DNA of 10,439 nt, taken from contig JAUCGN010000048.1 in the NCBI GenBank assembly GCA_030378125.1, positions 1-10,439 on the forward strand, given 5' to 3'. Below are positions 1 through 9,904 of the stretch, one piece after another. Within the stretch, counting starts at the first letter, position 1, and the number at the start of each line of letters is the position of its first letter. The stretch comes from Thiotrichales bacterium HSG1 (lineage in GTDB: Bacteria > Pseudomonadota > Gammaproteobacteria > Beggiatoales > Beggiatoaceae). The position numbers and the translations under genes are program-made. A model generated the notes under the pieces. That model was not told the DNA's origin and ran no database searches. It was given only the letters and a program-made list of their open reading frames with translations.

Positions 1-133
1 GACACTCGCTCTTTACGATAGCCGCATGGGGCGGTTTGATTCCAGCATCGGATTGCCGAAATCGAGAGGCCAACTCTCATCTTTAATACAGCATGAAAAA
101 CTTGTGCTTTTCTTCAGGACACACTAGGGATTA
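1..133. other. Left-edge stretch with the end of an unrecognised open frame
   Basis: On the + strand a frame is open from base 2 and closes with TAG at 125-127, giving 41 residues that include LYDSRMGRFDSSIGL. I recognise no family in it. It may be the C-terminus of a gene lying left of the window or chance, because the stretch is short. The - strand offers nothing better. I see no clear promoter for the following gene here. Confidence 0.2.
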
Positions 134-172
134 ATGGATTGCGAACTTTGTACTTTTTGTTTGGGGGAAACC

Positions 173-3004
173 ATGAAAAAAATATTTTTATTAATTAATA
201 TCTTATGTGTAGTTTGTTGGCAAAATGTTGTTTATGCGGATAATAAACCAATCCTACGGCTAGAAACTGGGATGCACACTGCCAAGATAACTAATATTGA
301 TGTCGATACGGCGGAACGGTTTTTAGTCACTGGTTCTGAGGATAAAACTGTGCGTCTTTGGTCTTTGCCGGAAGGTCAATTGATACGTACTTTCCGTCCA
401 CCAATTGGTCAGGGTCATGAAGGTAAAATTTTTGCAGTAGCGATTTCTCCTGATGGAAAAACTATTGCGGCGGGGGGATGGACCGGTTATGAATGGGATA
501 AAGAAGTTGCTATTTACCTTTTTGACCGTGTAACCGGAGAATTAACTCAACGCATCACCACAGGACAGCCAAACGTAATCAATCATTTAGCCTATTCGCC
601 AGATGGTCGCTATTTAGTTGCTAGTTTAGGAGCTAGAGAAGGTATTCATATTTATCACAGTTCAAACTATCACCAAATAGCCAAAGACACAGACTATGGT
701 AGTGATAGCTATTGGGCCGAATTTGATTATACTGGCCGTTTAGTTAGCAGTTGTTGGGATGGTTATGTTCGCCTATATGACAAGAACTTTAATTTAATCA
801 AACGTAAAGCACCGGAAGGTAATCGTCCTTTTGCAGTCCGTTTTTCACCGACTGGCGATAAAATTGCGATTGGTTTTGCTGATTCTACCCAAGTTAATGT
901 ATTATCAGGAAAAGATTTAAAATTATTGTATAGTCCCAATACACAAAATGTTAATAATGGTAGTCTGTTAAGTGTGGCTTGGTCACAAGATGGAGATACC
1001 TTGTATGCAGGAGGAAAGTATGATGAAGATGGTTTAAATCCAATTGTTAGCTGGTCAAAAGCTGGTAAAGGTTATCATCAAGCATGGGCAACTTCTCCAG
1101 ATGTTATTATAGATATTCGGACATTAAAAACTGGTGCAGTTCTTTTTGGAGCTGGAGACCCATCTTTTGGGCTATTCACTAAACAAGGTAAAAAAACTTT
1201 GTATCGTGAAGCTGGTATTGCTGATTTTCGGAATGTATTTATTGATGATGGTTTTTTAATTTCTAAAACTGGTAATAAAGTACAATTTAAATACGGTTCA
1301 GACCTGTCAGGCCTATTTGCAGTGGATAAACGAATTTTGAAATTAAACTCATCACCACAATCAAACTTAATTAAACCAAATACTTCAAGTTTAAACATCA
1401 CCAATTGGAAAAATACTTATCACCCCAAACTAAATGGCCAAGAACTTGCTCTTGAACAATATGAAACATCACGTAGTCTTGCCATTACCCCGGATGCTCA
1501 ACATTTTCTATTAGGTGCAAGTTGGTCATTACGCTTGTTTGATAAAAATGGTCAGCAACAATGGCAACAACCAGTGCCGGGTACAGCTTGGGGAGTTAAT
1601 ATTTCTGGAGATGGCAAAGTAGCAATAGCAGCCTTTGGTGATGGCACAATTCGCTGGTATCGCCTAACCGATGGCGAAGAACTACTGGCTTTTTTCCCTC
1701 ACAAAGACGGCAAACGCTGGGTTATCTGGACCCCACAAGGCTATTACGCTGCCTCTGCCAATGGTGACGAACTCATCGGCTGGCATATCAATCGTGGCCC
1801 AGATAAAGCCGCCGATTTTTACCCAGCAGCTCAATTCCGTGACCGCTATTACCGCCCCGATGTCATTAGCAAAGTCCTTGACACCCTTGACCCCGAACAA
1901 GCACTTGTCCAAGCTAATCAAGCCATAAAAAAACACCAAGCTGAACTTAAAATTCAACAAATATTACCACCAATAGTCAACATTATTTCACCGACAGACG
2001 GAGCCAATTTCTCCAGTTCAACCATCGAATTACGTTACCAGCTACGCAACCCTTCCAACGAAAAAATCACCAACTTAAAAATATTAATTGATGGCAATGA
2101 ACAACGCGGCCCGGAAACAACTTTAGTCCACGATGCCACCAACAGTTTATCAATTTCAGTGCCGAAACGTGATATAGCCATCAGCCTGATAGCCGAAAAT
2201 CGCTACGCTGCCTCCGTTCCATCCACCATTAATCTGAAATATGTCGGCAAAAAGCAAACATTCCGCATCCCAATCAAACTATATGTACTAGCCGTTGGTA
2301 TCAGCGACTATGATAACGACAAACTTGATTTAAACTATGCAGCCAAAGATGCCAGAGACTTTGCCAAACTGCTTGAATCTCAAAAAGATTATGGCCTATA
2401 CAGCGAAGTTGTGGTCAAATTGCTCACCGATGTGAATAGAGACCAAATCCTTGACGGCCTTGAATGGATTGAAAAACAAGTTACCCAACATGACGTAGCG
2501 ATGGTATTCTTTGCCGGACATGGAGCCAACAATAATCAAGGCGACTATGTTTTTATGCCCCGTGATTTCGACCATAAACGAGTCAGACGCACCACATTAC
2601 CCTATTACGAACTGAAAAGCACTATGGTTCGTTTAGCTGGCAAAAGACTATTATTTTTAGATACTTGTCACTCAGGCAATGTACTTGGTACTCGTAGAGG
2701 CATCGGAGATATTGACCAAATCGCCAATAGTTTATCCAGTGCCGAAAATGGAGTAGTCGTATTCGCAGCCTCCACTGGCAGCCAAACTTCCCAAGAGCAT
2801 ACCAAATGGCAAAACGGAGCATTCACCGAAGCCCTGCTCGAAGCTTTCAAACAAGCCGATTACACCAAAGATGGCAGTATCAGCATCAACGAACTTGACC
2901 TATACGTCTCCGATCAAGTAAAAAAACTAACCAACGGCGACCAAACTCCAACTACCTCAAAGCCGGAAACTGTCCCGGATTTTCCGGTTGTGGTGGTGCG
3001 TTAA
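173..3004 (+). CDS. Exported WD40-repeat protein with C-terminal caspase-like (peptidase C14) domain
   Basis: A 943-residue protein. The start is the ATG at 173, preceded by the Shine-Dalgarno run GGGGG about six bases upstream and opening a typical signal peptide (MKKIFLLINILCVVCWQNVV, cut near YA-D). An upstream in-frame ATG at 134 would bury that signal and was not used. Residues about 35-530 hold degenerate WD40 repeats (GSEDKTVRLWSL, AISPDGKTIAAGG, AYSPDGRYLV, FSPTGDKIAIGF, GDGTIRWYRL), probably one or two beta-propellers for protein binding. A glutamine/lysine-rich linker near 570-590 and a beta-rich segment near 598-690 follow. The caspase-like domain covers about 701-925, with candidate catalytic His783 (FFAGHGAN) and Cys832 (LDTCHSG). 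An EF-hand-like loop at 896-907 (DYTKDGSISINE) suggests calcium dependence. Members are thought to be periplasmic or surface cysteine peptidases; substrate unknown. It runs opposite to the integron array and is not a cassette. Codon use shifts towards C-ending codons from about base 1640. Confidence 0.9.
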   Translation: MKKIFLLINILCVVCWQNVVYADNKPILRLETGMHTAKITNIDVDTAERFLVTGSEDKTVRLWSLPEGQLIRTFRPPIGQGHEGKIFAVAISPDGKTIAAGGWTGYEWDKEVAIYLFDRVTGELTQRITTGQPNVINHLAYSPDGRYLVASLGAREGIHIYHSSNYHQIAKDTDYGSDSYWAEFDYTGRLVSSCWDGYVRLYDKNFNLIKRKAPEGNRPFAVRFSPTGDKIAIGFADSTQVNVLSGKDLKLLYSPNTQNVNNGSLLSVAWSQDGDTLYAGGKYDEDGLNPIVSWSKAGKGYHQAWATSPDVIIDIRTLKTGAVLFGAGDPSFGLFTKQGKKTLYREAGIADFRNVFIDDGFLISKTGNKVQFKYGSDLSGLFAVDKRILKLNSSPQSNLIKPNTSSLNITNWKNTYHPKLNGQELALEQYETSRSLAITPDAQHFLLGASWSLRLFDKNGQQQWQQPVPGTAWGVNISGDGKVAIAAFGDGTIRWYRLTDGEELLAFFPHKDGKRWVIWTPQGYYAASANGDELIGWHINRGPDKAADFYPAAQFRDRYYRPDVISKVLDTLDPEQALVQANQAIKKHQAELKIQQILPPIVNIISPTDGANFSSSTIELRYQLRNPSNEKITNLKILIDGNEQRGPETTLVHDATNSLSISVPKRDIAISLIAENRYAASVPSTINLKYVGKKQTFRIPIKLYVLAVGISDYDNDKLDLNYAAKDARDFAKLLESQKDYGLYSEVVVKLLTDVNRDQILDGLEWIEKQVTQHDVAMVFFAGHGANNNQGDYVFMPRDFDHKRVRRTTLPYYELKSTMVRLAGKRLLFLDTCHSGNVLGTRRGIGDIDQIANSLSSAENGVVVFAASTGSQTSQEHTKWQNGAFTEALLEAFKQADYTKDGSISINELDLYVSDQVKKLTNGDQTPTTSKPETVPDFPVVVVR

Positions 3005-3183: not shown

Positions 3184-3237
3184 ACCTAACACCATTCTTG
3201 AGCCGCCGATAGGTCGGCCTCCAAGATTAAGTTAGAA
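3184..3237 (-). other. attC site 1, last of the array
   Basis: Read on the - strand: R'' TTCTAAC, arm CTTGGAG, loop with CCGACCTATCGG, arm CTCAAG, and R' GTTAGGT, which matches GTTRRRY exactly. One extra G is left unpaired in the R''-side arm (CTTG[G]AG against CTCAAG), the usual strand-choice mark of attC. It terminates the HD-domain cassette. Confidence 0.9.
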
Positions 3238-3275
3238 TTAATTTATGATTATTTGCTGTGCTTCCTTTCATCATT

Positions 3276-3821
3276 CTAGCCTATGAGCTTTTTCCAAAAT
3301 TCCATAATACTCTCATTATTTACTATTCTATTTCCAAATTTTGTCAATTCTCCCCATTTATTTTCTCTAACAATAAATTTAGCCTCTCTAGAATATAACA
3401 TTTTCTCCGATGGTTTTATACCAACTCTCCTTAAGTCTAATCTATCTGCATCCCAACATGTACCAATTGTTTTATCTTTAACAGTTTCAACAACTCTTTT
3501 GTTATGATATTGACAGGCATAATACAATAACTCGAATTTTTCTTCTGATAATTCATATTCTTTATTTAACAATGACTTTGCATATTCTGCTCCTCTAACT
3601 CCATGTTCAGCATCACGCCCGTCGTTGAGTCTCATACTATCATGAAATATGGCAAACAGTCTTATCACATCTTCATCTGCATCATTTAATTGACATATAT
3701 ATAAGCCATTTCGTTCTACTCTAGACCAGTGTTTTGGTCCATGAATATGTGAATTAATCCTATTTGGATTTGAGATCACAATTTTCCAAAGATTATTGAA
3801 ATTTATCTTTGAATATTTCAT
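3276..3821 (-). CDS. HD-domain protein, probable metal-dependent phosphohydrolase
   Basis: A 181-residue cassette gene. The frame extends upstream to an ATG at 3866, but that codon lies inside attC 2 and would be fused to the site, so the ATG at 3821 (MKYSKINFNNLW) is preferred; neither start has a strong Shine-Dalgarno. The HD superfamily pattern is visible: His27/His31 (HIHGPKHWSRVERNG), the His60-Asp61 doublet (FAIFHDSMR), His106 (YACQYHNKR) and Asp126 (CWDADRLDL). Proteins with this spacing bind one or two divalent metals and hydrolyse phosphate esters of nucleotides or related compounds; the substrate cannot be told here. No transmembrane helix or export signal is seen, so it is likely cytoplasmic. 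It is the last cassette in the array, between attC 2 and attC 1. The family call is firm, the reaction is not. Confidence 0.82.
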   Translation of the reverse strand: MKYSKINFNNLWKIVISNPNRINSHIHGPKHWSRVERNGLYICQLNDADEDVIRLFAIFHDSMRLNDGRDAEHGVRGAEYAKSLLNKEYELSEEKFELLYYACQYHNKRVVETVKDKTIGTCWDADRLDLRRVGIKPSEKMLYSREAKFIVRENKWGELTKFGNRIVNNESIMEFWKKLIG

Positions 3822-3854
3822 ATGTAACGCTGTATGTAATTTTAACGATAATCC

Positions 3855-3907
3855 AACTAACACCATTCTTGAGCCGCCGATAGGTCGGGAGCAAGACCAA
3901 GTTAGAA
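3855..3907 (-). other. attC site 2
   Basis: R'' TTCTAAC at 3901-3907, R' GTTAGTT at 3855-3861, 53 bp. The R''-side arm reads CTTGCTC while the R'-side arm reads GGCTCAAG, so only CTTG/CAAG pairs well. The mismatch suggests arms from two attC sub-types. It ends the first toxin-antitoxin cassette. Confidence 0.88.
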
Positions 3908-3923
3908 TTTTTTGTTGTTGTAT

Positions 3924-4139
3924 TTAAGTTTGATTTATTTGAGTTCCATATTCCATTAGTTCTTTATCTTTTTCTAGTAATATATTAACTATATAATTCA
4001 TATCGGTATTCTTTGCTTGAGATAATTTCTTTATAAATTCAGCTATTTCAGGCTCAAGATAAATTGGTAAATTAAAATCTGCATCAGGATGGTAAAATTT
4101 TCCTCTTTCACCTTTTGAAAAATCATATTCTTCTTTCAT
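3924..4139 (-). CDS. brnA: Antitoxin of a BrnT/BrnA-type toxin-antitoxin pair
   Basis: A 71-residue protein starting MKEEYDFSKGERGKFYHP. Longer starts at 4169 and 4154 lie inside the toxin gene. The ATG at 4139 is chosen because GAAGG lies eight bases upstream and it follows the toxin stop by four bases, which implies translational coupling. The segment FNLPIYLEPEIAEFIKKLSQ followed by MNYIVNILLEKDKELM has the strand-helix-helix pattern of a ribbon-helix-helix DNA-binding dimer, here near the middle and C-terminus. The N-terminal SKGERGKFYHPDADFNLPIYL is typical of small antitoxins annotated with BrnT partners. Such antitoxins bind and neutralise the toxin and repress their own operon. The toxin-first gene order matches brnTA systems. 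It is in the same cassette as the toxin, closed by attC 2. Confidence 0.8.
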   Translation of the reverse strand: MKEEYDFSKGERGKFYHPDADFNLPIYLEPEIAEFIKKLSQAKNTDMNYIVNILLEKDKELMEYGTQINQT

Positions 4140-4143
4140 TTTA

Positions 4144-4443
4144 TTAACCTTCATATTGTTTGCATTCAAAATTAGTAGCTTTTCTTGCAGATATTACCCT
4201 AATTTTACATAAGGATTTATTGATATTGTTAAATGTATGGACTATTGATAGTAATACTCCATTGTTGTCTAGTCCTATGGTAACCCATCTTTCTTCATAC
4301 TCGCTATGTTCTTCATCAACTATTGATAATGCATTAGAATCACGAAATATTGTAGCCGCACGTTCAAAATTGATTTTATGCTTATGAATATTTGTTTTTG
4401 CTTTTTTTGCATCCCATTCAAAATTATATTGCATTTTTGTCAT
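4144..4443 (-). CDS. brnT: BrnT-family toxin (ribonuclease-type)
   Basis: A 99-residue protein with the BrnT signature: an N-terminal FEWDAKKAKTNIHKHKINFERA, a central SEYEERWVTIGLDN, and a C-terminal RVISARKATNFECKQYE. Family members are RelE-fold RNases that block translation and are held inactive by BrnA. The start could be the ATG at 4443 or the one three codons later at 4434; neither has a Shine-Dalgarno at normal spacing. An upstream in-frame ATG at 4461 has a strong Shine-Dalgarno (AAGGAAG, 4464-4470), but a TGA stops it after three codons (MKL, stop at 4450-4452). The gene may therefore be translated by re-initiation, or the stop may be a mutation. It is first in a two-gene cassette with the antitoxin. 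Confidence 0.87.
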   Translation of the reverse strand: MTKMQYNFEWDAKKAKTNIHKHKINFERAATIFRDSNALSIVDEEHSEYEERWVTIGLDNNGVLLSIVHTFNNINKSLCKIRVISARKATNFECKQYEG

Positions 4444-4449
4444 ATATAG

Positions 4450-4461
4450 TCAAAGTTTCAT
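4450..4461 (-). other. Three-codon in-frame mini-ORF with strong RBS ahead of brnT
   Basis: ATG AAA CTT TGA at 4461-4450 is in frame with the toxin and preceded by AAGGAAG at 4464-4470, five to six bases in total from the ATG. The toxin ATG at 4443 follows its stop by six bases. It could be a translational-coupling leader that supplies initiation to an otherwise weak start, or the true toxin start broken by a point mutation. The sequence alone does not decide. Confidence 0.4.
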
Positions 4462-4481
4462 TGCTTCCTTTTATTTGTACT

Positions 4482-4534
4482 ACCTAACACTTTTCTTCAG
4501 CCGCCAAAGGTCGGCCTCCAAAATTTAGTTAGAA
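4482..4534 (-). other. attC site 3
   Basis: R'' TTCTAAC and R' GTTAGGT, 53 bp, with loop CCGACCTTTGGCGG on the - strand. The arms (TTTGGAG and CTGAAG) pair less well than in most other sites. It closes the cassette for the small membrane protein. Confidence 0.88.
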
Positions 4535-4543
4535 TTAATTTTA

Positions 4544-4579
4544 CTCTGACCCCAATTATTACTGTGACCCCAATTATTA
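4544..4579. repeat. Two tandem 18-bp units with core TGACCCCAATTATTA
   Basis: CTCTGACCCCAATTATTA at 4544-4561 is followed directly by CTGTGACCCCAATTATTA at 4562-4579, one base different. The second unit overlaps the stop codon of the small membrane protein. Related words occur just inside other attC sites (CTGACCCC near 6665, CTTTGACCACAATTAT near 8448), so a short GGGGTCA-containing trailer is shared by several cassettes. Confidence 0.7.
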
Positions 4580-4768
4580 CTGTTCACTGCGTGGAGTTAT
4601 CAATAATGTCATCAGGCTCGCAGCCATTTCTCCGTCTCCTAGCAAAACAAAACCCCATTTTGGAATGGCCTGTAAAAGCCAAACAAAAAATGAACTAACG
4701 ATTACTTTTTTGCCTAATGACAATTTTATATACCACAAATGCAGTTTTGATATTCGTTTACCAAACAT
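4577..4768 (-). CDS. Small single-helix membrane protein of unknown function
   Basis: A 63-residue protein. The ATG at 4768 has a good Shine-Dalgarno, AGGAAAG, nine bases upstream, which supports translation despite the small size. A basic N-terminus (MFGKRISKLHLWYIKLSLGKK) precedes one hydrophobic stretch (VIVSSFFVWLLQAIPKWGFVLL, about residues 22-43), so the N-terminus is probably cytoplasmic by the positive-inside rule. The tail (GDGEMAASLMTLLITPRSEQ) runs into the tandem GGGGTCA-type repeat, with the stop codon inside it. I recognise no family. It is the sole gene of its cassette, flanked by attC 3 and a long-type attC. Confidence 0.6.
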   Translation of the reverse strand: MFGKRISKLHLWYIKLSLGKKVIVSSFFVWLLQAIPKWGFVLLGDGEMAASLMTLLITPRSEQ

Positions 4769-4786
4769 GTTTTATATCTTTCCTAA

Positions 4787-4853
4787 ATCTAACACTTATG
4801 TTAAGCGGCACGAGACACGGATGTAAAGTGTCCGCTTCAACGACTGGTTATCC
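4787..4853 (-). other. Long-type attC site A
   Basis: R'' GGATAAC at 4853-4847, R' GTTAGAT at 4793-4787. The R''-side arm GTTGAAGCGGACACT pairs with CGTGCCGCTTAAC, leaving an unpaired G and an unpaired A six pairs apart, with one mismatch near the loop. This two-bulge stem is a different architecture from the 53-bp sites. Confidence 0.78.
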
Positions 4854-4902
4854 TGAGTGTAGTCCGACCGTAGCAACTTAGAGAAACGGTTTATCAAGAT
4901 AA
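4793..4902 (-). repeat. Gene-less 110-bp cassette, copy A of the repeated unit
   Basis: This is the most diverged and shortest of five copies (others at 8133, 8259, 9395 and 9602). It has long-type attC A plus a trailing stretch ending GATAAC, but has lost about 14 bp (the GTAGCAAGGAC part) relative to the 126-bp copies. No reading frame is credible. Its limits coincide exactly with integron crossover points. Confidence 0.8.
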
Positions 4903-4950
4903 CACCATTCTTGAGCCGCCGATAGGTCGGTGAGCAAGAGTAAGTTAGAA
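4897..4950 (-). other. attC site 4
   Basis: R'' TTCTAAC at 4950-4944 and R' GTTATCT at 4903-4897, the latter supplied by copy A of the repeated unit. The R''-side arm CTTGCTC faces GGCTCAAG, the same arm mismatch as site 2. It closes the pilin-like cassette. Confidence 0.88.
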
Positions 4951-4985
4951 TTAACTTTACTCTAACTCTTTGTTTTTTCAATTTT

Positions 4986-5417
4986 TTATTTCATACATCT
5001 TTTTGGTAAATATTCAATATATGGAGTGCAATTTGGTTCTACAGATTGAACATCAGATTGTTTACAACTCCAATCACCCTTGACGTTTGTAAAACCAATT
5101 TTACCCAAATCATCTACTAAATTGAAACAAAGTGTCGGACCTGTTGTTGTAGTACGGCTGTATACTACCTCTTTAACATAAACAGAAGATGTAAACCCTG
5201 AAGCCTCAAAAGTTTGAGGATATTCACCCATGTCTACACGATACACACCAAGTTCAGTTTTAATTTGAGCAAAAGACAACATTACTTCAGACAACAATAT
5301 TTTGACATCATTGTTAAGTGGTAATATTTTGCAGTAATAAGCAGGAATCACAACAGCAGTTAAAATAGCAATAACCATCACCACCATCATCACTTTACAA
5401 CATCGTTCAATTTTCAT
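4986..5417 (-). CDS. Pilin-like protein with N-terminal membrane helix
   Basis: A 143-residue protein. The frame reaches an ATG at 5459 that lies inside attC 5, so the ATG at 5417 (MKIERCCKV) is preferred; AAGGGA lies about 13 bases upstream, rather far. The first 30 residues (CCKVMMVVMVIAILTAVVIP, then AYYCK) resemble the start of a type IV pilin or pseudopilin, including the IAILTAVVIPAY pattern. However, the leader-peptidase glycine and the glutamate at mature position 5 (G-FTLIE) are absent. A helical stretch follows (VKILLSEVMLSFAQIKTELGVYR), then a small domain with FTNVKGDWSC and four Cys in the second half that could form disulfides, as in pilin head domains. It may be a minor pilin, a decoy, or a membrane-anchored protein with a pilin-like fold. 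It is the sole gene of its cassette. Confidence 0.65.
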   Translation of the reverse strand: MKIERCCKVMMVVMVIAILTAVVIPAYYCKILPLNNDVKILLSEVMLSFAQIKTELGVYRVDMGEYPQTFEASGFTSSVYVKEVVYSRTTTTGPTLCFNLVDDLGKIGFTNVKGDWSCKQSDVQSVEPNCTPYIEYLPKRCMK

Positions 5418-5450
5418 GGCACTTAAATTTCCCTTAAATGTTTGTTGAGT

Positions 5451-5504
5451 TACTAACACCGTTCTTGAGCCGCCGATAGGTCAGCCTCCAAGATAAGGTC
5501 CATA
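5451..5504 (-). other. Degenerate attC site 5, R'' box lost
   Basis: R' GTTAGTA at 5457-5451 and the central palindrome are normal, apart from one G-to-A change in the loop (GGTCAGCC for GGTCGGCC on the + strand). After CCAAGATAAG the expected GTTAGAA is replaced by GTCCATAG. Without R'' the hairpin base cannot form, so the lipoprotein cassette may be fixed in place. Confidence 0.75.
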
Positions 5505-5507
5505 GCA

Positions 5508-5834
5508 CTATCGCTTATGCACCTTACCGCATTGTTTGTCTAAAGATTTATTCTTTGCTATTTTCATTGATAAATCAATGGGAAATAAAATCGTATCTAA
5601 TGCAAATGAAAAAGGAAAATCAATTGCCGCCAGTGGCTTAATTATGAGACTCAGGTCAATGATATGAGGATGTTTTGGTGAAGAAGTTGTGAGCCAGAGA
5701 TAATCTTCTCTAACACCTGGATAGATTGATGGATACTTGGCAGCATCATTAAGTATAAGTCCTCCTGATCTAACATTTATACTAGAACAAGATGTCATAA
5801 AAAATAAGCAGGTCAAAATTAATAATATCTTCAT
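5508..5834 (-). CDS. YceK/YidQ-like outer-membrane lipoprotein
   Basis: A 108-residue protein starting at the ATG at 5834 (MKILLILTCLFFMTSCSSIN), with GGAG about 11 bases upstream; the longer frame to 5891 would hide the signal. The lipobox MTSC makes Cys16 the probable lipidation site, and Ser17 at +2 favours outer-membrane sorting. After a short linker come YPGVREDYLWL and IKPLAAIDFPFSFALDTILFPIDL, which match the YceK/YidQ family (DUF1375) pattern of a YPGVR motif followed by a D-P-S-x-x-x-D-T-x-x-x-P-x-D block. The molecular role of the family is not established. Its stop codon is four bases from the damaged attC 5, so the end of the gene may have been re-formed when the R'' box was lost. 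Confidence 0.8.
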   Translation of the reverse strand: MKILLILTCLFFMTSCSSINVRSGGLILNDAAKYPSIYPGVREDYLWLTTSSPKHPHIIDLSLIIKPLAAIDFPFSFALDTILFPIDLSMKIAKNKSLDKQCGKVHKR

Positions 5835-5919
5835 TATTTTTATTTCTCCATAACGGCTAGCATAGTTACAATTACGAGTGAAACGAGCCAAAATTATGTA
5901 GTAGGCTTATTACTTTTAA

Positions 5920-5972
5920 ATCTAACACCATTCTTGAGCCGCCGAAAGTCGGCCTCCAAGACCAAGTTAGAA
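5920..5972 (-). other. attC site 6
   Basis: R'' TTCTAAC, R' GTTAGAT (a full GTTRRRY match), 53 bp. The R''-side arm CTTGGAG pairs with CTCAAG leaving one unpaired G. It closes the second toxin-antitoxin cassette. Confidence 0.9.
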
Positions 5973-5993
5973 TTGTTTCATATGCTATCAAAG

Positions 5994-6269
5994 TTAAACA
6001 CTTTGACGATTTGATTCTGCAAATTTATGTAAGATACCAGCTACAAATGTTTGATATGAAATACCTTCCGATAATGCAAGTTTTTGAATTACAAAAAAAT
6101 CACGATTGGCAATATAAATATTTATTTTTTTATCTTGTTTTAAAGTGTTAACAGCATATTTTTTATGTTTTTCTATTTCTTCTATTGCATTTGGAATTGG
6201 ATGTATATTCTCAGATTCGAAAGCATCAAAAATTTCTTGTTCTTCTTGAGTAAATGTATATTTAGCCAT
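5994..6269 (-). CDS. Antitoxin of the second BrnT-like toxin-antitoxin pair
   Basis: A 91-residue protein. The start at 6269 is well fixed: GGAGGA, formed by the last two codons of the toxin, sits six bases upstream, and the toxin stop is two bases before the ATG, so the two are translationally coupled. The N-terminal half (FTQEEQEIFDAFESENIHPI, then EEIEKHKKYAVNTLKQDKKI) is charged and helical. The C-terminal INIYIANRDFFVIQKLALSEG and ISYQTFVAGILHKFA have the strand-helix-helix spacing of ribbon-helix-helix DNA-binding proteins, as in antitoxins paired with small BrnT-like toxins. The expected role is toxin neutralisation and operon autorepression. It differs in sequence from the antitoxin at 3924-4139, so the two systems are unlikely to cross-neutralise. 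Confidence 0.82.
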   Translation of the reverse strand: MAKYTFTQEEQEIFDAFESENIHPIPNAIEEIEKHKKYAVNTLKQDKKINIYIANRDFFVIQKLALSEGISYQTFVAGILHKFAESNRQSV

Positions 6270-6271
6270 GA

Positions 6272-6544
6272 TTATCCTCCAATATATATTTTCGTTGCTT
6301 TACGGCTAGGTATGATTGTTTTCAGAAAAATTTCATCTTCTGATTCTACATATGGAACTAGATAAGCATAATTGTTGACAGCCACAACAGAAATTAACTG
6401 AGTTGGGTAACGTACATTATTTGGATGTGGATATACGTCTAATTCATCACCATTACTTATATGAAATACAATTTCTTCAAAAGAAATACCTCTTTCTTTC
6501 TTCAAAATTTCATTCTTTTCTTGGTTCCAATTATAAGTTTTCAT
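6272..6544 (-). CDS. BrnT-like toxin of the second toxin-antitoxin pair
   Basis: A 90-residue protein, MKTYNWNQEKNEILKKERGI, with the conserved toxin pattern: N-terminal W-x-x-E-K-N, then ISFEEIVFHISNGDELDVYPHPN, a central VAVNNYAYLVPYVESEDEIF, and the C-terminal FLKTIIPSRKATKIYI. It resembles BrnT (RelE-fold RNase) but belongs to the shorter sub-family that keeps PSRKAT. No Shine-Dalgarno precedes the ATG at 6544, but TATAAT lies at 6552-6547, only two bases upstream. If that is a -10 box the mRNA would start at about the ATG and be leaderless; no convincing -35 is seen. It precedes its antitoxin and shares its cassette. Confidence 0.82.
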   Translation of the reverse strand: MKTYNWNQEKNEILKKERGISFEEIVFHISNGDELDVYPHPNNVRYPTQLISVVAVNNYAYLVPYVESEDEIFLKTIIPSRKATKIYIGG

Positions 6545-6576
6545 ACATTATAAATAATTGTACTATCTGTATTTAA

Positions 6577-6629
6577 ACCTAACACCATTCTTGAGCCGCC
6601 GATAGGTCGGGAGCAAGACAAAGTTAGCA
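6577..6629 (-). other. attC site 7
   Basis: R'' TGCTAAC at 6629-6623, one base different from the usual TTCTAAC, and R' GTTAGGT at 6583-6577. The R''-side arm CTTGCTC faces GGCTCAAG, the third site with the mismatched arms seen at sites 2 and 4. It closes the secreted-protein cassette. Confidence 0.88.
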
Positions 6630-6656
6630 CATTTTTAGGTTTAATTTGGGCCAGAT

Positions 6657-7343
6657 TTAATTCGAGCCTGACCCCTTTTTTAATTGAGGAACAAGCAACC
6701 GCACTAAAGGTGCCGCATCACCTAAGTTAGTTTGCTTCATTTTATAGTGAACTTTCTTATGTCCATTACACAATGAAGCTAAAGGTTCTAAAGTGAGGCT
6801 AACGGTACTCAACCAACCACCAAATGAATAAGCAGCTAATATATCAATAACTGTTCCGCTACTTAATTGACAAGCTTGTTTTTCAAGGTTTCTGTCTAAA
6901 TACAAAGTCACATCATCAAAAATGGCAAAAACACTCTTTGTCGATTTTGAATCACAGCTTGATTTAAATAGACGATCATTGCTGCCTAAATAAGGAATTG
7001 TAATAGCTCCTTGATCTGTTAAATAGACAAAAGTTGTAGGTAAAAAAGAATTCTTTTTCTTTTTTGTTCCGATCAAAAGTTGATCCCCCTTTTTTATATC
7101 TATTTTCCATCCACTTATACTATCTTGATAAGAGTAATTATCTTCAAATGTTGCGATACAATAATTTTTCCAGTTGCTTGGTATTTCTATTGCACGAGCA
7201 GTGTATTCAGCAGGACATACCTGTTCAGACCGATAAAGACTTCCGTCTTCATCAATACATGAATACATCTTTTCTTCTGCAAACACGGATGAAAATAATA
7301 ATAACCCGATCAATGATAAATTTACCTTTAGAGTGTATCTCAT
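6657..7343 (-). CDS. Secreted protein with N-terminal DUF4124-like segment
   Basis: A 228-residue protein. The ATG at 7343 has GGAAA about nine bases upstream. A clear signal peptide (MRYTLKVNLSLIGLLLFSSV, cut after FA-E) predicts export to the periplasm. Immediately after it, KMYSCIDEDGSLYRSEQVCP matches the DUF4124 pattern (Y-x-C-x-D-x-D-G then a C-P about ten residues on), a short domain found at the N-terminus of many exported proteobacterial proteins and of unknown function. The rest has at least five further Cys, a KKKK turn near residue 95, and beta-rich segments (FAIFDDVTLYLDR, GTVIDILAAYSFGGW) that I cannot assign. The last residues (KKGSGSN) are encoded by the GGGGTCAGGCTCG trailer shared with other cassettes, so the C-terminus may have been extended into the trailer. 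It is the only gene of its cassette. Confidence 0.75.
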   Translation of the reverse strand: MRYTLKVNLSLIGLLLFSSVFAEEKMYSCIDEDGSLYRSEQVCPAEYTARAIEIPSNWKNYCIATFEDNYSYQDSISGWKIDIKKGDQLLIGTKKKKNSFLPTTFVYLTDQGAITIPYLGSNDRLFKSSCDSKSTKSVFAIFDDVTLYLDRNLEKQACQLSSGTVIDILAAYSFGGWLSTVSLTLEPLASLCNGHKKVHYKMKQTNLGDAAPLVRLLVPQLKKGSGSN

Positions 7344-7377
7344 TTAAATATTTCCATGATTATGTTTTATGAACACT

Positions 7378-7430
7378 ACCTAACACCATTCTTGAGCCGC
7401 CAAAGGTCGGCCTCCAAGATTAAGTTAGAA
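7378..7430 (-). other. attC site 8
   Basis: R'' TTCTAAC, R' GTTAGGT (a full GTTRRRY match), 53 bp, CTTG[G]AG paired with CTCAAG. It closes a cassette without a gene. Confidence 0.9.
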
Positions 7431-7528
7431 CTATATCTAATATCCTAAATTATATCAACTTCACTTTGAACAAGATTTAACGGATTAAAAGATGGACAGG
7501 ATTAAATCCAAACTGATAACCAAACTAA
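7384..7528 (-). repeat. Gene-less 145-bp cassette
   Basis: Apart from attC 8 it holds about 92 bp with no usable frame on either strand. The part next to the attC (ATCCTAAATTATATCAACTT then CACTTTGAAC on the + strand) resembles the start of the repeated body at 8846 and 9776, so it may be a fourth, mostly replaced relative. The remainder contains GGATTAAAAG and GGACAGGATTAAATCC, a repetitive TTAATCC-type sequence. Confidence 0.65.
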
Positions 7529-7574
7529 CACCCCTCTTCACCCGCCAAAAGTCGGGTGCAAGGGCAAGTTAGAA
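7523..7574 (-). other. attC site 9
   Basis: R'' TTCTAAC, R' GTTAGTT, 52 bp. The arms CTT[G]CACCCG and CGGGTGAAG pair perfectly apart from one extra G, a clean textbook attC stem. It closes the nuclease-like cassette. Confidence 0.92.
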
Positions 7575-7575
7575 C

Positions 7576-8103
7576 TTATTTAAGAGTGCCTCTTTCAGCA
7601 TCGAAGTAAAAGTTTTTAGCAGTATCATTCTTTTTAAACTTCTTCAAATACTCTGTTTTTACAAAATCAAATTTCATGGCTTTCAAAGGTGCAACAAATA
7701 TCTCGTTAGGATTATCAGGAGTTCCACCAACCCCAATAATTATAAATACTGGTACATTTTTATCAGTGGCATAATTGTTATATCGTTCCACTTGTATTTT
7801 CTTAGCCCAATTAATACCACCTTTATAATAGTTTTGTCGCCATTTACACTCCACTGCAAATATATGTTTGATATTTTTTAAGCGAAATTCAAACTCTAAA
7901 TCAGGATTTTTATTGGACTCGGCATATCTACCGTTTGTCCCTTTATCACTACGCCATTCCTTAAGTGTAAAATACCGTTTATCAAATTTGTTTACAATTA
8001 ATTGTTCAAATTTATCACCTTTTTCTTTGGCTGTATTTTGTACACTTTCTTTTTTATATGACGAAAAACCTAACCATTTAAAAATAATATTTAGTAAATT
8101 CAT
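7576..8103 (-). CDS. PD-(D/E)XK nuclease-like protein
   Basis: A 175-residue protein starting MNLLNIIFKWLGF at 8103. The order of conserved groups fits a PD-(D/E)XK endonuclease core: a helix with Glu33 (EKGDKFEQLIVNKF), Pro67-Asp68 (NKNPDLEFEFR) at the end of a beta-hairpin, and Glu85-Cys-Lys87 (FAVECKWRQ) on the next strand. VPVFIIIGVGGTPDNPNEIF then gives the following core strand. Asp68, Glu85 and Lys87 would bind the metal and catalyse phosphodiester cleavage. No DNA-recognition or helicase domain is attached, so the target is unknown. Possible roles include restriction-like defence and DNA repair. A short frame, MLRKKP, overlaps its start (CCATGA) but lacks properly spaced initiation signals. 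It is the sole gene of its cassette; its stop lies just inside attC 9. Confidence 0.78.
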   Translation of the reverse strand: MNLLNIIFKWLGFSSYKKESVQNTAKEKGDKFEQLIVNKFDKRYFTLKEWRSDKGTNGRYAESNKNPDLEFEFRLKNIKHIFAVECKWRQNYYKGGINWAKKIQVERYNNYATDKNVPVFIIIGVGGTPDNPNEIFVAPLKAMKFDFVKTEYLKKFKKNDTAKNFYFDAERGTLK

Positions 8104-8126
8104 GGTTTTTTCTTACGTAACATCTC

Positions 8127-8193
8127 CACTAACGCACATGTTAAACGGCACTAGACAAGGATGTAAAGTGTCCGCTTCAACGCCAAGTTATCC
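8127..8193 (-). other. Long-type attC site B
   Basis: R'' GGATAAC, spacer TTGGC, arm GTT[G]AAGCGG[A]CACT, loop of 14, arm AGTGCCGTTTAAC, R' GTTAGTG. Thirteen pairs (one G-T) with two unpaired bases on the R'' side. Confidence 0.82.
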
Positions 8194-8258
8194 TGAGTGT
8201 AGCCCACCCGCAGCGACTTGGAGAAGTGTAGCAAGGACGGAACGGTTCATCAGGATAA
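8133..8258 (-). repeat. Gene-less 126-bp cassette, copy B of the repeated unit
   Basis: Consists of long-type attC B plus about 60 bp bounded by GTTATCCTGA and its mirror (here TCAGGATAAC on the + strand). Directly followed by copy C, so the pair is a tandem array of one cassette. A + strand frame (GTRQGCKVSASTPSYPECSP) runs through it but continues across attC boundaries and is not credible as a gene. Confidence 0.85.
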
Positions 8259-8319
8259 CACCCATGTTAAACGGCACTAGACAAGGATGTAAAGTGTCCG
8301 ATTCAACGACTGGTTATCC
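8253..8319 (-). other. Long-type attC site C
   Basis: The R' box GTTATCC comes from copy B and is the perfect complement of R'' GGATAAC, giving a seven-pair hairpin base. The arms GTT[G]AATCGG[A]CACT and AGTGCCGTTTAAC have one mismatch. It is formed at the junction of the two tandem gene-less cassettes, which is direct evidence that these units behave as cassettes. Confidence 0.85.
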
Positions 8320-8384
8320 TGAGTGTAGTCCGACCGTAGCGACTTGGAGAAACGTAGCAAGGACGGAACGTTTCATCAGGATAA
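8259..8384 (-). repeat. Gene-less 126-bp cassette, copy C of the repeated unit
   Basis: The same length as copy B and similar to it, but with the spacer CAGTC instead of TTGGC between R'' and the arm, as in copies A and E. No gene. Next along is attC 10. Confidence 0.85.
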
Positions 8385-8437
8385 CACCGCTCTTCTCCCG
8401 CGCGGCTTTTTGCGTCGGGAGCAAGGCTAAGTTAGAA
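8379..8437 (-). other. attC site 10
   Basis: R'' TTCTAAC, R' GTTATCC from copy C, 59 bp. CTT[G]CTCCCG pairs with CGGGAGAAG with one unpaired G, and the loop is longer than in other short sites (ACGCAAAAAGCCGCG). It closes the cassette for the 88-residue protein. Confidence 0.9.
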
Positions 8438-8489
8438 TTAATTTCACTTTGACCACAATTATCTTAAGAGGTATATCTGGAATGATTTG

Positions 8490-8756
8490 TTATGTGATTT
8501 CAAGTAAAATGCTAGGATTTTTGTCTATCACTCCTTTGATAATCATATTTTTTAGGTCATCATGAACTATAAACCACATTGGATTACCAAATGTTTTAGG
8601 ATAGCCCTTATCTTCTTCATCACTTCCATTCCAACGCATGGCAATTACTTTATTTTTATTTTTCCAAATTCCATACGCTACTGAAAAACTGCCATTATCA
8701 AACAATACTTTTTTAACTTTAAAGTTTCCTGGATTAACATCTGTTGGCTTTGGCAT
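8490..8756 (-). CDS. Small cytoplasmic protein of unknown function
   Basis: An 88-residue protein, MPKPTDVNPGNFKVKKVLFD, starting at 8756 with the purine-rich AAGAAGAA upstream as a plausible ribosome site and TATAAT at 8782-8777 as a possible -10 box (no good -35). No signal peptide or membrane helix. The composition and pattern (FSVAYGIWKN, KVIAMRWNG, YPKTFGNPMWFIVHDDL) look like a compact alpha/beta or beta-sheet protein. I have an impression of similar hypothetical proteins sharing KxxAMRWNG and GYPxxFGNPxWF, but know no function. It is the only gene in its cassette. The real-gene call rests on orientation, placement against attC 10 and sensible composition. Confidence 0.75.
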   Translation of the reverse strand: MPKPTDVNPGNFKVKKVLFDNGSFSVAYGIWKNKNKVIAMRWNGSDEEDKGYPKTFGNPMWFIVHDDLKNMIIKGVIDKNPSILLEIT

Positions 8757-8791
8757 AATATTCTTCTTTTTTACAAATTATAAATACATTC

Positions 8792-8845
8792 ACCTAACAC
8801 CATTCTTGAGCCGCCGATAGGTCGGCCTCTAAGATAAAGTTAGAA
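8792..8845 (-). other. attC site 11
   Basis: R'' TTCTAAC, R' GTTAGGT, 54 bp. The R''-side arm CTTAGAG has a C-to-T change on the + strand relative to sites 1 and 8. It is nearly identical to site 14, because both belong to the duplicated gene-less cassette. Confidence 0.9.
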
Positions 8846-8975
8846 CCATATAAAATAATCTTAAAATTACCTTCCATCAACTTCATTTTGAACTATCAAA
8901 TTCAGATAAACAGTTTACAGCTAACAGACAGTACAAGAGAATTGAAAATAACTTAAGAACTATTAACCCAACTAA
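8798..8975 (-). repeat. Gene-less 178-bp cassette, copy 1 of a duplicated cassette
   Basis: The whole cassette, attC included, matches 9728-9904 with only a handful of differences. The body (8846-8969) contains a 32-residue hydrophobic - strand frame (VLKLFSILLYCLLAVNCLSE) with stop at 8883, but its only ATG lies inside attC 12 and neither start nor frame upstream is kept in copy 2. I treat it as non-coding. Confidence 0.82.
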
Positions 8976-9022
8976 CACCATTCTTGAGCCGCCGATAGGT
9001 CGGCTCCAAGACCAAGTTAGAG
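8970..9022 (-). other. attC site 12
   Basis: R'' CTCTAAC at 9022-9016, R' GTTAGTT at 8976-8970. One base of the loop region is missing relative to site 1 (GGTCGGCTCCAAG on the + strand), so CTTGGAG[C]CGACC is closer to its partner. The R'' box contains the stop codon of the zinc-ribbon gene. Confidence 0.9.
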
Positions 9023-9382
9023 TTGCACATTGTAAACACGCCAATATTTCCAGTTCCTGTATGCAGGTCTTGTGATAACCCAAACAGACCACCCGAAACC
9101 AAGAAACAAGATTAAGCCTGCAAGCACTTTCACAGCTAATGATTCTATGAATATACCACCTAAAAATATTACCAGCGGCAAAGTTCCCCACTGGATCAAT
9201 ACCTCATCAAATGGATGCACATTAATTATAAGCGGTGTTCCACACTCAGGACAAACAGCAATGCGTTTCCTAATTGTCTTGTTTATTGGCAATGGTATTG
9301 TAAAAAGAGCATCACCTATACCTTTCATCGGCATATAGCGATTTTTCAAATTTGTTTTACAATTAGGACAATGATAATTCAT
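9017..9382 (-). CDS. Zinc-ribbon protein with two membrane helices
   Basis: A 121-residue protein. The ATG at 9382 (MNYHCPNCKTNLKNR) is preferred over an in-frame TTG at 9388; there is no Shine-Dalgarno, and the ATG is only 13 bases inside the cassette. Cys5-x2-Cys8 and Cys44-x2-Cys47 (AVCPECG) form a four-cysteine zinc ribbon of about 43 residues, interrupted by a basic loop. Two hydrophobic segments follow, about 61-79 and 83-103, and the tail is aromatic and basic (RPAYRNWKYWRVYNVQL). The ribbon and the tail are therefore probably both cytoplasmic. No function is known to me. Its TAA stop lies inside the R'' box (CTCTAAC) of attC 12, so the attC forms part of the gene's end. Confidence 0.78.
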   Translation of the reverse strand: MNYHCPNCKTNLKNRYMPMKGIGDALFTIPLPINKTIRKRIAVCPECGTPLIINVHPFDEVLIQWGTLPLVIFLGGIFIESLAVKVLAGLILFLGFGWSVWVITRPAYRNWKYWRVYNVQL

Positions 9383-9388
9383 AGACAA

Positions 9389-9455
9389 CTCTAACCACTA
9401 TGTTAAGCGGCACTAGACAAGGATGTAAAGTGTCCGCTTCAACGCCAAGTTATCC
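9389..9455 (-). other. Long-type attC site D
   Basis: R'' GGATAAC, spacer TTGGC, arm GTT[G]AAGCGG[A]CACT, loop TTACATCCTTGTCT, arm AGTGCCGCTTAAC, R' GTTAGAG. Thirteen perfect pairs with two unpaired bases six pairs apart: the best-preserved long site. Confidence 0.85.
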
Positions 9456-9520
9456 TGAGTGTAGCCCGACCGTAGCGACTTGGAGAAGCGTAGCAAGGGC
9501 GGAACGTTTCATCAGGATAA
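9395..9520 (-). repeat. Gene-less 126-bp cassette, copy D of the repeated unit
   Basis: It shares spacer TTGGC with copy B. The half outside the attC is bounded by the 10-bp inverted pair GTTATCCTGA/TCAGGATAAC, with an inner GCCC/GGGC pair. No gene is seen on either strand. Confidence 0.85.
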
Positions 9521-9568
9521 CACACTGCTTCACCAGCCGTATAGGTCTGGTGCAAGAGCTAGTTAGCA
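9515..9568 (-). other. attC site 13
   Basis: R'' TGCTAAC, R' GTTATCC from copy D. CTT[G]CACCAG pairs perfectly with CTGGTGAAG, leaving one G unpaired. It makes up most of its 81-bp cassette. Confidence 0.9.
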
Positions 9569-9601
9569 GGCTCGCAATGTGTAAACGAGTCGACCTACTA
9601 A
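9521..9601 (-). repeat. Minimal 81-bp cassette
   Basis: Attachment site 13 plus about 33 bp (CGCAATGTGTAAACGAGTCG is the core on the + strand). It has no room for a gene or an obvious promoter. It lies between copies D and E of the 126-bp unit. Confidence 0.8.
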
Positions 9602-9662
9602 CCCCTATGTTAAGCGGCACTAGACAAGGATGTAAAGTGTCCGCTTTAACGACTGGTTATCC
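9596..9662 (-). other. Long-type attC site E
   Basis: R'' GGATAAC, spacer CAGTC, arm GTT[A]AAGCGG[A]CACT, arm AGTGCCGCTTAAC, R' GTTAGTA. As in site D but with A instead of G as the first unpaired base. Confidence 0.84.
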
Positions 9663-9727
9663 TGAGTGTAGCCCGACCGTAGCGACTTGGAGAAGCGTAG
9701 CAAGGGCGAAACGTTTCATCAGGATAA
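9602..9727 (-). repeat. Gene-less 126-bp cassette, copy E of the repeated unit
   Basis: It shares spacer CAGTC with copies A and C and is very close to copy D over the rest of its length. No gene. With copy D it flanks the 81-bp cassette. Confidence 0.85.
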
Positions 9728-9775
9728 CACCATTCTTGAGCCGCCGATAGGTCGGTCTCTAAGATTAAGTTAGAA
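9722..9775 (-). other. attC site 14
   Basis: R'' TTCTAAC, R' GTTATCC from copy E, 54 bp. Nearly identical to site 11 over the hairpin. Confidence 0.9.
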
Positions 9776-9904
9776 CCATATCAAATAATCCTAAAATTAC
9801 CTTCTATCAACTTCATTTTGAACTATCAAATTCAGATAAACAGTTTACAGCTAACAGACAGTACAAGAGAATTGAAAATAACTTAAGAACTATAACCCGA
9901 CTAA
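9728..9904 (-). repeat. Gene-less 177-bp cassette, copy 2 of the duplicated cassette
   Basis: The body (9776-9898) differs from 8846-8969 at about five positions, including a one-base deletion near the upstream end that breaks the small hydrophobic frame seen in copy 1. The stretch 9395-10113 as a whole (about 720 bp) holds no gene, only gene-less cassettes and repeat copies. Confidence 0.82.

Follow-up and report, generated by a model that had tools for sequence, protein, structure and literature searches.

Cassette array and gene-less units

The window analyzed here, a stretch of 10,439 nucleotides, is contig C352 of the draft genome of Thiotrichales bacterium HSG1 (G000; 2.22 Mb in 457 contigs, 63% complete). 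It contains a cassette array on the minus strand (3190 to 9904) with 19 complete cassettes and 20 crossover points, which were placed by hand, a script having put four of them in the wrong position. The longest sense open reading frame (ORF) does not exceed 33 aa in 9 of the 19 cassettes and 63 aa in 10 of them. Two cassette genes have BrnT-family matches (4144 to 4443 and 6272 to 6544, both on the minus strand), the second below the Pfam cutoff; a small ORF adjoins each, and the pairs are possibly toxin-antitoxin cassettes. The end of the array adjoins a gene for a 956-aa protein with WD40 repeats and a caspase-like domain (134 to 3004, plus strand), and positions 1 to 78 (minus strand) match the Rfam group II intron family D1-D4-2 up to the contig edge.

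The most repeated cassette of the array is a 126-bp unit without a gene. Copies lie on the minus strand at 8133 to 8258, 8259 to 8384, 9395 to 9520, and 9602 to 9727, and a shortened copy of 110 bp lies at 4793 to 4902. The longest sense ORF is 27 aa in the unit and 33 aa in the 110-bp copy. A first-pass annotation of this DNA had described five 126-bp units that begin and end at crossover points; all five lie on the minus strand and have G|TT crossovers at both ends, while the length applies to four, which agree pairwise at 111 to 120 of 126 positions. The two units at 8133 to 8384 form, as had also been noted, an exact head-to-tail tandem, of which the unit at 8259 to 8384 is the upstream partner in cassette orientation, preceded immediately by a short-type attC (8381 to 8438, minus strand). 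The downstream partner starts with TTATCCTG and ends in TGTGCG, followed by TTAGTG. Fifteen further crossovers are of the shorter type, the number previously given for short attC sites, except that the crossover at 5457 has no R'' box recognizable by eye.

Other gene-less cassettes on the same strand are an 81-bp cassette between two units (9521 to 9601; longest sense ORF, 4 aa), a 145-bp cassette (7384 to 7528; 12 aa), and a 178-bp cassette (8798 to 8975; 17 aa) that is repeated in relatives and in the window, where its second copy measures 177 bp (9728 to 9904; 96% identity). Together with two other gene-less cassette families, the unit accounts for 8 of the 19 complete cassettes. Two tandem copies of the 177- to 178-bp cassette adjoin the attI of G003 (G003:C119:45-390). 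Matches related to the 81-bp cassette occur in loci L107, L115, L118, L125, and L128, and in 6 of 8 matches, one of the six partial, this cassette is directly followed by the 126-bp unit, a share biased by the fact that most of the loci were fetched for holding the unit.

When a cassette circularizes, its first bases complete the R' box of the attC that it carries. The R'' box of the unit (GGATAAC) pairs with the start of its own unit (G+TTATCC) at 7 of 7 bases in four units, among them that at 8133 to 8258, and at 6 of 7 in the shortened copy. Only 4 of 7 pairs form between this box and the beginning of the next cassette, except at the tandem junction, where the R'' of the upstream unit and the R' of the next one form the full seven-base pair reported earlier. 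Because R'' pairs with its own start and poorly with that of the next cassette, we consider the unit a complete cassette. Its attC, running from R'' GGATAAC to R' GTTATCC and lying across the tandem junction at 8253 to 8319 (minus strand), measures 67 nt, 61 of which are within the 126-bp unit; it thus makes up about half of the cassette and not almost the whole of it, as first proposed. The L''/L' stem of 13 pairs with two bulged bases, originally attributed to all five units, is present in two (9395 to 9520 and 9602 to 9727), and each of the other three has 12 Watson-Crick pairs, supplemented in one by a G-T pair. The first bulged base, described as G, is A in the unit at 9602 to 9727.

The first-pass annotation had suggested folding both strands as single-stranded DNA, and the attC indeed folds more stably than dinucleotide shuffles, with z scores of -3.2 and -4.3 for two unit attC sites and -3.2 and -2.3 for two short attC sites; the fold of the whole unit is weaker (z of -2.1 on each strand). 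A home-made attC finder was dropped as noisy (13 sites forward, 9 in the reversed window, 1 to 7 in ten shuffles); similarity to ten of the window's short attC sites was used in its place.

In an alignment of 40 copies, between which indels occur, the named structure is paired in 93.2% of cells, against 31 to 42% with the partners slid, although part of this excess is expected from a structure drawn from one of the same 40 copies. Covariation is modest, with 8 double-change cells compared to 3.1 in shuffles. In 5 of the 40 copies the L'' box does not pair with L'; these five have a divergent, GTTTTCGCTACC-like L'' box, which is seen in loci L130, L132, and L134. Mean column identity is 0.93 for the unit's own R boxes and 0.81 and 0.89 for the stem arms, compared to 0.73 for the body and 0.74 for the loop. 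This greater conservation of R boxes and stem arms favors persistence of the unit through its mobility.

The same comparison bears on the possibility that the unit is kept for use, as a putative promoter or transcribed element reading into the next cassette. All four full-length window units carry at their 3' end a promoter-like motif in sense orientation, TTTACA-18-TAACAT, directed toward the next cassette; promoter-like sites between 8100 and 9800 number 11, versus 4.7 (standard deviation, 2.3) in shuffles; and 14 of the 40 copies have a promoter-like match in sense and 1 in antisense, with 2.7 (standard deviation, 1.7) in mononucleotide shuffles. Promoter activity has also been published for gene-less Vibrio cassettes (PMC11014356, in the portion of the source available). 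However, the promoter-like match is absent from 26 of the 40 copies, and identity is lower in the body and loop than in the R boxes and stem arms, as if recombination were the main constraint. On these sequence features, retention for such a use appears less likely than not.

Genomic contexts of the unit

We collected 81 copies of the unit from the HSG1 genome, ten relatives, and four contigs of Achromatium palustre; 12 without a left end were dropped, and 69 had a readable one. Copies known only from tables were left out of this classification (for example, those on G001 C45, C222, C199, C432, and C234, G002 C248, and G041 C176). The left end follows a short attC in 32 of the 69 copies, another attC in 5, attI-related DNA in 11, another unit in 3, and none of these in 18, some of which resemble other attC or attI by eye. 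The base before TT is G in 53 of the 69. Control GTTA sites in the same loci matched a short attC in 49 of 2,054 cases, a rate that may overstate chance, since the controls share loci with the copies and may contain real attC sites. The stem score alone is unreliable, with control GTTA sites reaching 7 in 29% and 9 in 9% of cases, and the five assignments to other attC sites required a stem score of at least 9 plus inspection by eye.

References for attI were the DNA adjoining the intact intI genes of G001, G003, and G004, and the attI class was defined, without a shuffled control, by a match in the 200 bp upstream that ends no more than 110 bp from the unit. Seven of the 11 matches end within 4 nt of the unit, and 4 end 47 to 105 nt away. 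Three sites (G004 C317, G004 C257, and G002 C232) match the part of the reference that adjoins its first cassette, one (G000 C48, with the unit directly behind the attI-like DNA) matches its middle, and the remaining seven match only reference positions 2 to 102, i.e., the intI start and promoter part. On G000 C337 the unit lies behind attI-like DNA beside an intI remnant; this remnant is all that was found in a search for intact intI in the HSG1 genome, itself 63% complete. In G004, an intact intI lies 2.5 kb from a copy that is truncated on its right. Two loci of Candidatus Achromatium palustre (L084 and L092) contain tandem units with 126-bp spacing up to the contig ends, and L084 adjoins an intI N-terminal stretch that is 69% identical to that of G004. 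At positions 1 to 118 of L169 (G002:C69), what looks by eye like the 3' end of a group II intron abuts a unit, with no Rfam match at the gathering score.

Right ends, called by script, read G|TT in 41, A|TT in 16, and C in 2 of the 59 read, with 22 of the 81 unread; the 16 A calls include doubtful readings, and the 2 C calls are probably misreads. The DNA that follows mostly begins with TTAG or TTAT, as cassette starts do. Judged from the left-end contexts, most readable copies occupy the places expected of a cassette mobilized by an integron integrase (IntI).

MITEs are short, multicopy, and non-coding. The unit shares all three properties and contains the inverted pair TTATCCTGA/TCAGGATAA, but the ends of the unit are integron crossover points, the inverted pair links its start to the internal R'' box and not to its other end, and right ends are mostly followed by cassette starts. 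A search for the unit in related genomes had been proposed as a means of telling a cassette from a MITE, and 51 of the 69 left ends follow an att-type site or a further unit. The opposite outcome, numerous copies that lie outside integrons and are flanked by target-site duplications, would have spoken for a MITE and was not seen; no such duplication was noticed by eye in the contexts inspected, and 18 of the 69 left ends are unclassified. A MITE-like element moved by a transposase, its position in the array being incidental, is therefore very improbable, and this reading was set aside because left-end contexts are mostly att-type. The earlier view of the unit as an integron cassette that multiplied is supported by the 37 left ends behind attC, the 3 behind another unit, and the 11 behind attI-related DNA.

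Alternatively, homologous recombination or segmental duplication among arrays, rather than IntI, might be the main source of the copies. Units occur in tandem, the draft genomes are fragmented, and the frequent succession of the 81-bp cassette and the unit, even if drawn from biased loci, indicates that blocks may travel together. Single units, on the other hand, follow many different attC sites as well as attI-like DNA, and duplication within arrays does not account for copies that lie immediately behind attI-like DNA. We regard recombination or duplication as an improbable main origin of the copies.

Two sites were compared among relatives in the search for empty sites. On G000 C136, the unit lies directly behind a uspA-like gene and heads an array with short attC sites at C136:9982-10029 and 7346-7392; no attI similarity was found upstream of this copy. 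In G001, G002, and G004, uspA is followed by different DNA, and stretches of it as long as 1.5 kb gave no match in the 15.2-kb contig C136. The C136 insertion is therefore not bounded. At the site of the unit on G001 C259, G003 keeps approximately the first 20 nt of the unit and G002 and G004 are without it, and the right flank of the G002 and G003 site was not found in the G001 contig. The C136 copy resembles the CALIN/attG insertions (PMC12444791, in the part of that work available) in heading an array directly behind the uspA-like gene, with no attI similarity found; it differs from them in that neither of the two comparisons recovered an empty site with both flanks.

Distribution, integrase, and subfamilies

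Within its order, the unit was found in 11 of 42 genomes; since all 42 belong to one family, this search is silent on other families. Matches number 9 in G000, 17 in G001, at least 20 in G002 (20 of 27 candidates scored), 1 in G003, 8 in G004, 3 in G005, 1 in G025, 1 in G027, 7 in G036, 5 in G038, and 6 in G041. Among wider kin, 11 of 143 genomes matched, all in one family (at most 6 candidates scored per genome), and in a class-wide sample 3 of 369 matched, all from the same family (at most 2 candidates scored per genome). A scan of genome collections with a strict pattern returned 25 stretches from Thioploca, Halobeggiatoa, Thiomargarita, Parabeggiatoa, Achromatium, or Thiotrichaceae, with records including Candidatus Halobeggiatoa, Candidatus Parabeggiatoa, Thiotrichaceae metagenome-assembled genomes, and Candidatus Achromatium palustre; the same pattern gave no match in viral contigs. 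The NCBI taxonomy places Achromatium in Thiotrichaceae.

The first-pass annotation had suggested that the unit may be an immigrant, on the premise that a sedentary array usually has one attC type. A recent arrival from outside the family was rejected, as neither the 143 kin nor the 369 class genomes, with up to 6 and 2 candidates scored per genome, gave a match outside it, and the unit looks like a family resident. The premise is also weak, because mixed sites occur in the arrays of relatives and in those of Vibrio, where 59-be sites form clades of mixed species (Boucher et al. 2006, PMC1382264, in the text available).

An intI gene (TIGR02249) scoring over the cutoff was found in 5 of the 11 unit-bearing genomes and in 2 of the 31 others (Fisher's exact test, P = 0.0085, on related genomes that are not independent units). 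The remaining 6 unit-bearing genomes are without an intI over the cutoff; only genes over the cutoff were counted, as weaker matches occur in 13 to 14 of 14 control genomes too.

A tree of the 40 copies, with good support for only 4 of its 37 inner branches, contains a group of 24 rows whose branch is one of these (100/99). This group contains copies from G000, G001, G002, and G004, together with one from G005, two from G038, and one from G041; three other G038 copies and four other G041 copies fall outside it. Two subfamilies thus co-occur in G038 and in G041, and the presence of two lines in one genome suggests, as its simplest explanation, movement between genera. This sharing of two genomes by the subfamilies, together with the left-end contexts, favors IntI-type mobility over a MITE.

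The cleavage triplet of integrons is usually described as a fixed GTT. Ten copies nevertheless have a GGC-A|TT end in place of G|TT (one each in G025 and G027, three in G036, two in G038, and three in G041), and those represented in the tree lie outside the 24-row group. The ten lie at separate places, which a fixed triplet does not predict. Because a cassette takes along the base that precedes TT, the A|TT variant would have been inserted repeatedly or spread by recombination.

A probable minimal cassette and its relation to known systems

From its sequence and contexts, we infer that the unit is very probably a minimal, gene-less integron cassette mobilized by IntI, which likely persists largely through its own mobility. 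It consists of a body of 59 to 65 bp and a folded attC. The IntI of the family would excise the unit as a circle, using the bottom strand of this attC in its folded form, and the circle would be inserted at attI, into a further attC site, or, rarely, at another place; as the donor copy can survive this single-strand reaction, copies would accumulate. Weak promoter activity may bring the following cassette a side benefit. A stronger version, in which the unit is a cargo-free, self-propagating parasite of integrons, stripped down mostly to recombination sequence and selected for its uptake by IntI, with at least two genus-crossing subfamilies, one of them tolerating A|TT, is a tentative proposal with somewhat less than an even chance of being correct.

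In the available text of Boucher et al. (2006, PMC1382264), Vibrio arrays contain families of non-coding cassettes, one with 45 members in a single genome; selfish and regulatory roles are already weighed for them, and cassettes inserted outside integrons are also reported. The unit resembles these paralogous cassettes in being gene-less, present in multiple copies per array, similar over its whole length, and confined to one clade. As far as that text goes, it differs in occurring in giant sulfur bacteria of several genera, in lying also directly behind attI-like DNA, and in having an attC of another type than most sites in the array around it. The gene-less Vibrio cassettes tested for promoter activity measure 491 to 666 bp, with attC sites of 101 to 127 bp (Blanco et al. 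2024, PMC11014356). According to the part of that study available, these promoter cassettes of Vibrionaceae superintegrons are, like the unit, gene-less and located in sedentary arrays; the unit, at 126 bp, is approximately a quarter of their size, its attC measures 67 nt, and its putative promoter motif is not conserved. No paper on the 126-bp unit was found in the literature searched. The unit is of the same kind as the paralogous non-coding cassettes known from Vibrio; what sets it apart is its size, its family, the genera in which it occurs, and its attI-like contexts.

Cassettes are usually explained by the genes that they carry. If a cassette without cargo is the most repeated one of its array, occurs in several genera of one family, and lies directly behind attI-like DNA, minimal hitchhikers that belong to integrons themselves become conceivable. 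An object of 126 bp would make the question of selfish versus regulatory roles for non-coding cassettes testable, and the A|TT subfamily could probe how strict the integrase is about its cleavage triplet. Should the unit prove to be a promoter cassette, it would be a compact example of a known function. As it stands, the unit, repeated in many integron arrays of giant sulfur bacteria (Thioploca and Thiomargarita among them), looks like a minimal hitchhiker of the integron.
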